Shown one piece after another: positions 58,687 through 59,485 of a stretch of DNA of 64,000 nt. Position 1 is the first letter of the stretch; each line of letters starts with the position of its first letter. The position numbers and the translations under genes are program-made. The notes below the pieces were generated by a model that saw only the letters and a program-made list of their open reading frames with translations, was not told the DNA's origin and did no database searches. The stretch comes from an uncultured Bacteroidales bacterium (GTDB lineage Bacteria > Bacteroidota > Bacteroidia > Bacteroidales > Paludibacteraceae). The stretch spans positions 1-64,000 of the forward strand of contig CAMHSB010000005.1 in NCBI GenBank assembly GCA_946187695.1. The letters run 5' to 3'.

Positions 58687-58738
58687 GTACCGCGAGCCGG
58701 GGTCGAACCGGCACGCCCATCACTGGGCAAAAGATTTT

Positions 58739-59425
58739 CGTACATTCGCTGTTGATCACTCAGCGTCTGCTTGGACTATGTCATGACCGTGTCCCGGAGG
58801 ATGTAGGTCGTGGGTATATAGTCTCTACACATTTAGGTGTTGCCACCACTTAGCTCGGCGTTCTGAACATATAAAGGCTGTTCCATTCACCGAATTAGCC
58901 CACTTCTACTTCAAGCCTTTCGACTTGAGCACTCTTTACCTTTGTTCTTACCTCGATAATTCTCGGTCAGCGCGTGACAGTTTGGACATAATAGTTGAAG
59001 ATTCTCCAACCGTTGGTCATCCCGAATGGCATTGATATGATGTAACTCCAATGCAATGGGCTGCCCTAACCACTCTGTCAAGCCACAACATTCGCATTTA
59101 CGTTGCTTAATTCCTTCGCGCAACAAACGTTCGCGCAGGTGGTTCGCGTTTACGAATGTGGAATGTGTTACCAAAATTGTCTCTAGCGGTTGAGGCGCGC
59201 GGAGCGGCTTACGTCGTACTCCTTTGTTCCAGCCTTGTCTCGTCATATGAGACGTGTCGAGGTGTAACTCTTGAATTTTGCGTTTAACCGTATCGTAATT
59301 GCTACCCGCTATACACAAGTGTAATTTTTCAATTACTTGTGCGAATGAATAACTCGTACGAACCGCTTCTACAAAATCCTGATCAGTCCATTTTCGTTTA
59401 CTCATAAACAAAAAATGTTTCGTCA
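58739..59425 (-). ncRNA. Group I self-splicing intron in the tRNA-Leu(UAA) anticodon loop
   Basis: 687 bases between exon 1 ending in U and exon 2, closing with the expected terminal G (58739). P1: exon ACTT pairs with intron GAGT with the U-G wobble at the splice site. P3: GTGGG (about 58895) with CCCAC (about 58811). P6: GGTG-GCAA-CACC (GNRA loop). R-like segment GCCGAGCTAAG (58849-58859). P7: AGACTAT (58817-58826) with ATAGTCC (58773-58782). P8: GACC/GGTC. P9: CGCTG/CAGCG. The order is right for a group I core. The HNH gene fills the 5' part between P1 and P3. Confidence 0.92.
58911..59405 (-). CDS. HNH homing endonuclease encoded in the group I intron
   Basis: ATG at 59405 (MSKRKWTDQDF) lies in the P1 region; an in-frame TTG at 59426 would start in the exon and is unlikely. 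Residues about 1-70 form the helical DNA-binding part (FVEAVRTSYSFAQVIEKL, TVKRKIQELHLDTSHMTRQ, GWNKGVRR). The C-terminus has a zinc-stabilised HNH nuclease: CECCGLTEW, LELHHINAIRDDQRLENL and CPNCHALTENYR. About 164 residues, intact. It presumably nicks or cuts intronless tRNA-Leu genes to spread the intron. Confidence 0.9.
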   Translation of the reverse strand: MSKRKWTDQDFVEAVRTSYSFAQVIEKLHLCIAGSNYDTVKRKIQELHLDTSHMTRQGWNKGVRRKPLRAPQPLETILVTHSTFVNANHLRERLLREGIKQRKCECCGLTEWLGQPIALELHHINAIRDDQRLENLQLLCPNCHALTENYRGKNKGKECSSRKA

Positions 59426-59485
59426 AAGTCTTTCTTGTCTACCTATTCCAACATCGCGGCAGATGATTTTCGTCAAAATCGGCTG

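Follow-up and report, generated by a model that had tools for sequence, protein, structure and literature searches.

The window, a 64,000-nucleotide stretch from a contig of an uncultured Bacteroidales bacterium (family Paludibacteraceae), contains a tRNA-Leu(UAA) gene split by a group I intron, inside which lies a gene for an HNH endonuclease. From comparisons with relatives in bacteria and viral contigs, we consider it very probable that this group I intron is mobile and that its HNH protein is a homing endonuclease, that the HNH family is tied to tRNA-Leu(UAA), and that intron and enzyme are both carried by phages.

Joining of the two exons of the split gene (59460–58688, minus strand) produces a tRNA-Leu with anticodon UAA, the intron being situated between U34 and A35. 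A preliminary description of the window had proposed this arrangement, a group I intron with an HNH gene at that point, and it is borne out by the exon coordinates, by covariation in the intron core and by a match to the Pfam HNH family. The same description equated the insertion point with that in cyanobacterial and plastid tRNA-Leu(UAA), which the U34/A35 position supports. The U34·G pair at the 5′ splice site and the G with which the intron ends (58739) are features of group I introns. The positions of all elements are collected in Table 1.

Table 1. Positions of the split tRNA-Leu(UAA) gene, the HNH gene and the elements of the intron core in the window.
Feature	Positions	Strand	Basis or remarks
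5′ exon of tRNA-Leu(UAA), tRNA positions 1–34, ending at U34	59426–59460	minus	no other match of the halves in the genome
Group I intron, 687 nt, final G at 58739	58739–59425	minus	Rfam RF00028, 25 bits; covariation; empty site in relatives
HNH endonuclease gene, 164 codons; ATG at 59405, TGA at 58913–58911	58911–59405	minus	Pfam HNH; phrog_10822
Internal guide sequence GAGU (P1, 3′ strand), paired with ACUU of the exon at 59429–59426	58931–58934	minus	conserved GAGTGC
P2 hairpin UCAAGUC-GAAA-GGCUUGA, contains the HNH stop codon	58911–58928	minus	7 of 7 pairs change on both sides; rows selected around P2
P3, 5′ strand GUGGG	58899–58903	minus	both partners vary in all 5 pairs
P4, 5′ strand	58888–58894	minus	both partners vary in 4 of 7 pairs
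P4, 3′ strand	58854–58860	minus	covariation
P7, 5′ strand GACUAU	58818–58823	minus	both partners vary in 1 pair, 4 are invariant; an end pair is retained in 17 of 31
P3, 3′ strand CCCAC	58810–58814	minus	covariation
P8 hairpin, GACC/GGUC base	58785–58809	minus	base 100% paired, 2 of 4 change on both sides; distal part 3 of 3, 91.3% paired
P7, 3′ strand AUAGUC	58774–58779	minus	covariation
P9 hairpin CGCUG...CAGCG	58747–58765	minus	by eye
3′ exon of tRNA-Leu(UAA), A35 to discriminator A73	58688–58738	minus	sequence and genome search with the joined tRNA

The host genome (2.22 Mb in 52 contigs, 97% complete) has 38 tRNAs by Rfam. ARAGORN named 37 of these on other stretches, the 38th being a tRNA-Pro inside the window, and the other tRNA-Leu genes of the genome read UAG and CAA only. 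Apart from the two halves, a search of this 97%-complete genome with the joined tRNA gave one weak partial match of 28 bases, to tRNA-Leu(CAA), and no second tRNA-Leu(UAA). The split gene is apparently the sole UAA-reading tRNA gene of the genome, and hence needed; four neighbouring genes together have 140 leucine codons, 9 of which are UUA. In its D-stem a U10-A25 pair, in standard tRNA numbering, replaces the G10-C25 of relatives, a compensatory change, seen by eye, that is as expected for a working tRNA. ARAGORN in its default mode missed the gene and, run with the intron option, gave it the shifted anticodon TGA, making this a case of a tRNA finder calling an apparently essential tRNA missing. 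Missing tRNAs with group I introns are reported in PMC8450103.

Use of the Rfam group I models had been suggested as a check, and Intron_gpI (RF00028) does match the minus strand at 58968–58749, with 25.0 bits and an E-value of 4.8e-4 in a 961-base search, a score under the family gathering score of 50; in a search of the whole window at the gathering threshold, an Intron_gpI match is absent from the list. Because of this low score, the structure was tested on related introns. The set comprised 31 intron cores: 13 came from Bacteroidales loci together with a Clostridium MAG, one from a contig of G027, a genome with contamination, and 17 from viral contigs. Across the 25 pairs of P3, P4, P7 and P8 scored, which were written by hand, pairing holds in 96.6% of cells, and both partners vary in 15 of the pairs. 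None of 500 shuffles reaches the observed covariation on four of five measures; on the fifth, further pair types, the observed 30 against a shuffled mean of 30.2 represents no excess. Sliding the pair partners lowers pairing to 26–41%. The core of a group I intron, a P3/P7 pseudoknot with P4 and P8, is thus found in 31 sequences, covariation supporting P3, P4 and P8, and P7 being mostly invariant. With P2 added, 97.2% of cells are paired and 22 of 32 pairs change on both sides, but a motif around P2 had served to select the rows, with P2 pairing as a further requirement for the viral ones, so that P2 is no independent test and is supported mainly by the bacterial rows. P5 and P6 were left out of the scoring because the alignment shifts there, and no P10 pairing was seen by eye. 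Of the elements P1, P3, P6, P7, P8 and P9 that had been described as directly readable, P3 and P8 are therefore upheld by covariation, P7 is mostly invariant, and P1 is probably to be placed elsewhere.

The apparent P1 of the preliminary description involved a GAGT beside the ATG of the HNH gene. A better-supported guide sequence is the GAGU at 58934–58931. The motif GAGTGC stands directly before P2 in 23 of 23 introns found in the genus by a covariance model, 22 of these having come through a parser that requires GAGTGC and the 23rd having been added separately. It is also present in the 16 named-genome loci whose HNH gene is in the P1 loop, a set obtained by protein search with no use of the motif, and in an ORF-less relative (L073) it follows the 5′ splice site by 8 bases; in the viral loci L106, L152 and L155 the guide motif was not found. 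Of the 22 parsed genus introns, 11 have an upstream GAGT within their first 60 bases, and the other 11, that of G022 included, have none there; the copy beside the ATG, one of several such upstream GAGTs, is the less likely candidate. Upstream copies near the 5′ splice site, seen at 59400–59425 of the window and in L336, L337, L343, L344, L346, L348–L351 and L355, are either an alternative P1, which they may form in some copies, or chance occurrences.

By the better-supported guide sequence, the HNH gene, previously placed between P1 and P3, lies within the P1 loop; its last codons cover the guide sequence and P2, and it stops in the 3′ strand of that hairpin. The earlier placement apparently rested on the GAGT beside the ATG, a less likely P1. 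In relatives the HNH frame passes over the guide sequence either in frame 0, with a stop 21 bases downstream, or in frame 2, with a stop 22 or 37 bases downstream, and in the viral loci L105, L114 and L157 it continues further. That the RNA letters of the guide sequence are kept while the HNH frame differs points to a constraint acting on the RNA. Moreover, since the last HNH codons overlap the guide sequence and P2, translation and splicing should be mutually exclusive for any given RNA, and we predict that a molecule translated to the HNH stop would not be spliced. Our conclusions as to the identity and mobility of the intron are unchanged by these considerations, because neither rests on the guide sequence being exclusive or on P2 being independent. 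In L107 and L157, which have the HNH gene in the P1 loop, there is a further coding stretch after the core begins.

The HNH reading frame, which is open upstream to a TTG at 59426, was described beforehand as intact, and this is confirmed by its 164 codons, by a match to Pfam HNH (PF01844) at 26.3 bits, above the cut-off of 21.4, and by a match to phrog_10822 with an E-value of 5.7e-47. Residues H122, H123, N135 and H144, together with C104, C107, C140 and C143, are invariant across 34 HNH sequences and presumably play the roles that conserved His, Asn and Cys residues have in HNH domains. Comparison with the copy in G022 yields a dN/dS of about 0.05, which indicates that the gene is under purifying selection. 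Solved structures gave weak matches only, to McrA-type HNH proteins (E about 0.05).

The mechanism that we favour is as follows. The precursor tRNA-Leu(UAA) would fold into a group I ribozyme, with GAGU paired to the exon end ACUU, and this ribozyme would remove itself, joining U34 to A35. Unspliced RNA would be the template for the HNH protein, which would cut intronless tRNA-Leu(UAA) genes near the anticodon, and repair of the cut would copy the intron into them. From their association only, we infer that the insertion site is the endonuclease target. Members of the HNH family stand free beside tRNA-Leu(UAA) or lie captured in one of two intron loops, and both enzyme and intron are present in phages. 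In the best reading of the data, a homing intron and a tRNA-Leu(UAA)-linked endonuclease have repeatedly been joined, as in collaborative homing, and have been shared between phages and bacteria, presumably with transfer from phage to bacterium. It is possible, if rather doubtful, that the HNH family is an isotype-specific nuclease system directed against the tRNA-Leu(UAA) gene, with free-standing phage copies attacking that of rival phages or of the host and the intron masking the site. Since masking of the cut site would render a bacterium or phage with the intron immune to the nuclease with or without an HNH gene, the bacterial intron would then be a protective tRNA allele, which would explain why introns persist after HNH loss.

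The distribution of the intron bears on whether it moves. A covariance model built from 16 intron cores found it in 23 of 178 genomes of the genus, and in 13 of the 68 good ones; in an earlier sample, 88 of 101 genus genomes had matched the joined tRNA-Leu(UAA), mostly at full length and thus as unsplit genes. Twelve of the 22 parsed genus introns have an HNH open reading frame of at least 150 codons, in six it is broken or shortened and four are without a trace of it; the remaining intron, in G560, begins at the cut end of its stretch and was outside the HNH parse. The locus, in which the tRNA gene lies between an NlpC/P60 gene and an HD gene, has no intron in G003 and G115 and is occupied in G022. 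For the flanking HD gene, dS is 1.18 between G003 and G000 (the genome of the window), 0.41 between G115 and G022, and 2.19 between G000 and G022, so that among the four genomes compared the nearest relatives of the intron carriers have the same locus empty. The HNH genes of G000 and G022 differ by a dS of 1.09, below the 2.19 of their HD genes, a pattern that favours repeated gain of the intron over descent with loss, with dS here taken from one host gene and near saturation. Patchy presence, empty sites and decayed HNH copies are features of homing elements. We regard the intron as real, and as a mobile element that is probably active.

These observations make it unlikely that we are dealing with an old, vertically inherited tRNA-Leu intron that no longer moves and whose HNH protein is a passenger or a splicing helper (maturase). 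An ancient group I intron common to eubacteria and chloroplasts, that of tRNA-Leu(UAA), is the subject of a 1990 paper by Kuhsel, to judge from its title as cited in PMC11835236, some relatives elsewhere in Bacteroidota are too short for an HNH gene, and purifying selection on the HNH gene fits any function. An inherited intron would nevertheless have to be reconciled with its presence in so few genomes of the genus, with the empty locus in the nearest hosts compared, and with close kin that are found in viral contigs or stand free next to intact tRNAs. Moreover, the HNH gene is broken or absent in 10 of the 22 parsed copies, in which the introns persist, so the protein is probably not needed for splicing.

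Beyond the genus, the exact P2 motif was found in 3 of 393 genomes of the order, and among 395 genomes of the phylum a model search detected related introns in 16, that of the window being included in both counts. Eight of these 16 are in tRNA-Leu(UAA) and eight in tRNA-Arg(UCU), as determined by ARAGORN or by exon joining, and 14 are too short to hold an HNH gene. The view that such an intron is unusual for Bacteroidota is therefore partly right: related introns recur in the phylum, mostly in a form without room for the enzyme. An HNH relative does occur in a tRNA-Leu intron of another Bacteroidota family (G745), and this intron (L357) apparently lies one base earlier, between U33 and U34, as judged by eye. 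An intron of the same type at about position 1500 of L316 (G355) interrupts a gene resembling tRNA-Ile(GAU); again by eye, the insertion point seems to be between U33 and G34. Short group I-like introns are present in genes of other Bacteroidota named tRNA-Arg(UCU) by ARAGORN (L362, L364–L371). G117, with 5% contamination, has a split tRNA-Leu(UAA) gene and also an intact one whose exons resemble those of the gene in the window (L069 and L070). At several loci (L343, L344, L348, L353; L041, L044, L045, L053, L054, L058) the 3′ end of tRNA-Leu is partly repeated downstream of the gene. Homing scars were considered as an explanation and rejected, as the repeats are found with and without the intron, at 4 of 23 intron-bearing genus loci and at 6 of the 29 intronless ones parsed out of 30.

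Relatives of the HNH protein were located at 22 loci of named genomes, some of which are also in the genus set (L083 is G022). Seventeen are from MAGs named Bacteroidales or Paludibacteraceae, several of these from rumen or animal-gut samples to judge from isolate names, and there is one each from Clostridium, Prevotellaceae, Anaerolineales, Tenericutes and an entry named 'bacterium'. The HNH gene or its remains lie inside a split tRNA-Leu(UAA) at 18 loci, being broken in at least L087, L095, L096, L100 and L103; the others are two beside a split gene, one beside an intact gene and one unplaced. In the Anaerolineales and Tenericutes loci, the HNH gene is in the P6 region and not in the P1 loop, by eye. 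In the two beside-split loci (L093, L094), it stands just 3′ of a tRNA-Leu(UAA) gene whose intron is without HNH. A free-standing HNH gene close to the kind in the window faces a tRNA 3′ end that is cut at the contig edge (L088, by eye).

IMG/VR contains at least 500 relatives of the HNH protein, and the best 80 were all examined. Within these best 80 loci, tRNA-Leu(UAA) is nearest to the HNH gene or encloses it in 70: the gene is beside an intact tRNA-Leu(UAA) in 45, beside a split one without HNH in 14 and inside a split one in 11. Of the 10 nearest another tRNA, two also have tRNA-Leu(UAA) within 60 bp. Eleven of the viral splits were missed by the script, seven being recognised by eye (L148 from its 3′ half only) and four from twins of the same model score (L127, L154, L170, L171); 10 of the 14 beside-split assignments were read by eye or carried over from a twin. 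In L163 and L180, two of the 11 inside loci, the HNH gene is antisense to the split gene.

It is still less likely that the HNH protein is not aimed at tRNA-Leu(UAA) at all, HNH genes simply gathering in phage tRNA clusters and the intron having picked up a nearby one by accident. There are precedents for free-standing endonucleases in tRNA regions, SegB being without isotype preference (PMC13096335), and distant members of the family do adjoin other tRNAs. Among 208 records of deposited phages with an HNH match, nine were examined at the match; the neighbours are Leu(CAA) in S-CRM01, Glu/Gly in Dorin, Leu(UAG) in Atu_ph07, Gly and Leu(UAG) in Vibrio D69, Gln in LCK69, Asn in Enterococcus 113, Phe in phiSA12 and Leu(UAA) in LR745208, with no tRNA near the HNH gene of Dulem virus 42. 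The Leu(UAA) link therefore holds for the nearer part of the family. When the viral loci are merged at 90% identity, 51 clusters result, of which 44 are associated with Leu(UAA), and in merged loci with at least three tRNAs, Leu(UAA) is nearest in 24 of 28 against 6.2 expected, a figure reached in none of 20000 simulations (both for the best 80 of at least 500). The control here was the count of tRNA types within the same loci, a control with another phage HNH having given one locus and been dropped. The HNH gene lies 43–74 bp from tRNA-Leu(UAA) in 49 of the 59 beside loci from the same best 80 of at least 500, and in bacteria of several phyla it is found inside the Leu(UAA) intron in two different loops. 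The closest relatives of the HNH protein are thus evidently tied to the tRNA-Leu(UAA) gene. In an HNH tree of 76 rows, the window falls into a 15-row clade (100/99) with bacterial rows, the viral L104 and L105 and Dulem virus 42, and the tree needs at least 15 changes between the inside, beside-split and beside-intact states.

That the locus is dead or mis-assembled, through phage contamination or as a tRNA pseudogene, is most improbable, since, draft though the genome is at 52 contigs and 97% completeness, relatives that have the intron and relatives that lack it share this locus with its flanking NlpC/P60 and HD genes, the D-stem carries its compensatory change and the element is present in other assemblies.

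The element as we read it, a homing intron with its own HNH endonuclease, has several known counterparts. Group I introns of cyanobacterial and plastid tRNA-Leu(UAA) are usually small and have no open reading frame. The present intron shares with them the gene, the insertion point in the anticodon loop and the group I core, but has an HNH gene filling its P1 loop and a Bacteroidales host. I-Ssp6803I, encoded in the tRNA-fMet intron of Synechocystis, is likewise an endonuclease from within a bacterial tRNA group I intron; it has a PD-(D/E)XK fold, however, in place of HNH, and a different tRNA as its home. The cases of collaborative homing known to us are all in phage protein genes. In that process, as described for phages in PMC3984707 and PMC2988022, a free-standing endonuclease and an ORF-less intron meet at one site, a proposed step towards composite introns. 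The same two partners meet in L093, L094 and the 14 beside-split viral loci; in contrast to the known cases, the site here is a tRNA gene, all stages are present and the hosts include bacteria. In the accessible text of PMC4853749, interrupted tRNA-Leu-TAA and tRNA-Arg-TCT genes with a putative group I intron are described for Beggiatoa/Thiomargarita, a similar splitting of tRNA-Leu-TAA in a non-cyanobacterium, with no mention in that text of an HNH gene like the one found here. SegB of T4/T6 is, according to PMC13096335, also a free-standing homing endonuclease tied to phage tRNA genes, but of the GIY-YIG type, indifferent to isotype and without an intron, in contrast to the Leu(UAA)-linked HNH family with its intron.

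A single conserved tRNA site thus offers free enzymes, enzymes beside ORF-less introns and enzymes in two intron loops, and the family displays the steps by which a free endonuclease linked to tRNA-Leu(UAA) may become part of a composite homing intron. With all stages at one tRNA site in phages and bacteria, the joining steps become comparable and testable. The union of endonuclease and intron is called one of the most intriguing questions in a 2014 review (PMC3984707), which also has HNH enzymes as less frequent in introns of bacterial chromosomes than in those of phages.

According to that review, the phage introns observed to date were all in protein-coding genes, a statement to which a split phage tRNA-Leu(UAA) runs counter. 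The word 'tRNA' does not occur in the text of one paper on intron-rich gut phages (PMC12363816), tRNA introns are not mentioned in the accessible part of another (PMC7886860), and 'intron' does not occur in the text of PMC7162821, on huge phages. Literature titles and the starts of abstracts, with few subscription papers covered and hence as weak evidence, contained neither an HNH-bearing Bacteroidota tRNA-Leu(UAA) intron nor a split phage tRNA-Leu.

Split tRNA-Leu(UAA) genes do occur in viral contigs. The P2 motif was found in at least 119 stretches, 80 of which became loci. These and the 80 HNH loci supplied 88 motif instances, with some contigs counted twice; seven fail the P2 check, 20 have no tRNA and in 61 the joined tRNA is Leu(UAA) by ARAGORN. 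Among 51 distinct viral cores, 32 are in introns shorter than 300 nt, 13 have an insert of more than 400 nt before the guide sequence, five have an insert after it and one is of another length class. The viral status of these contigs is that given by IMG/VR, with a few PHROG matches as a check: a sigma factor on the L105 contig and an rIIA protein on the L198 contig were matched, and three L104 proteins and one L106 protein had no PHROG match. In seven split viral tRNAs with anticodon UAA (L177, L196, L198, L199, L207, L227, L234), the long variable arm of tRNA-Leu is lacking, by eye.

When deposited phages were searched with blastn, the cores of L104 and of the window gave no match, and an ORF-less viral core matched 22 records. 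Of the 10 examined, six have the match in or near protein genes, three in a split tRNA-Leu(UAA) and one in a tRNA-Arg. The isolated Agrobacterium phage Atu_ph07 has its tRNA-Leu(UAA) split by a 278-nt intron, at a place where the record annotates no tRNA, and the uncultured huge phages LR756501 (205-nt intron) and LR756511 (700 nt, with HNH) have split tRNA-Leu(UAA) genes that are likewise without annotation in their records. A Microcoleus phage has a tRNA-Arg(CCU) gene with a 213-nt group I-like intron (L311, 711–996).
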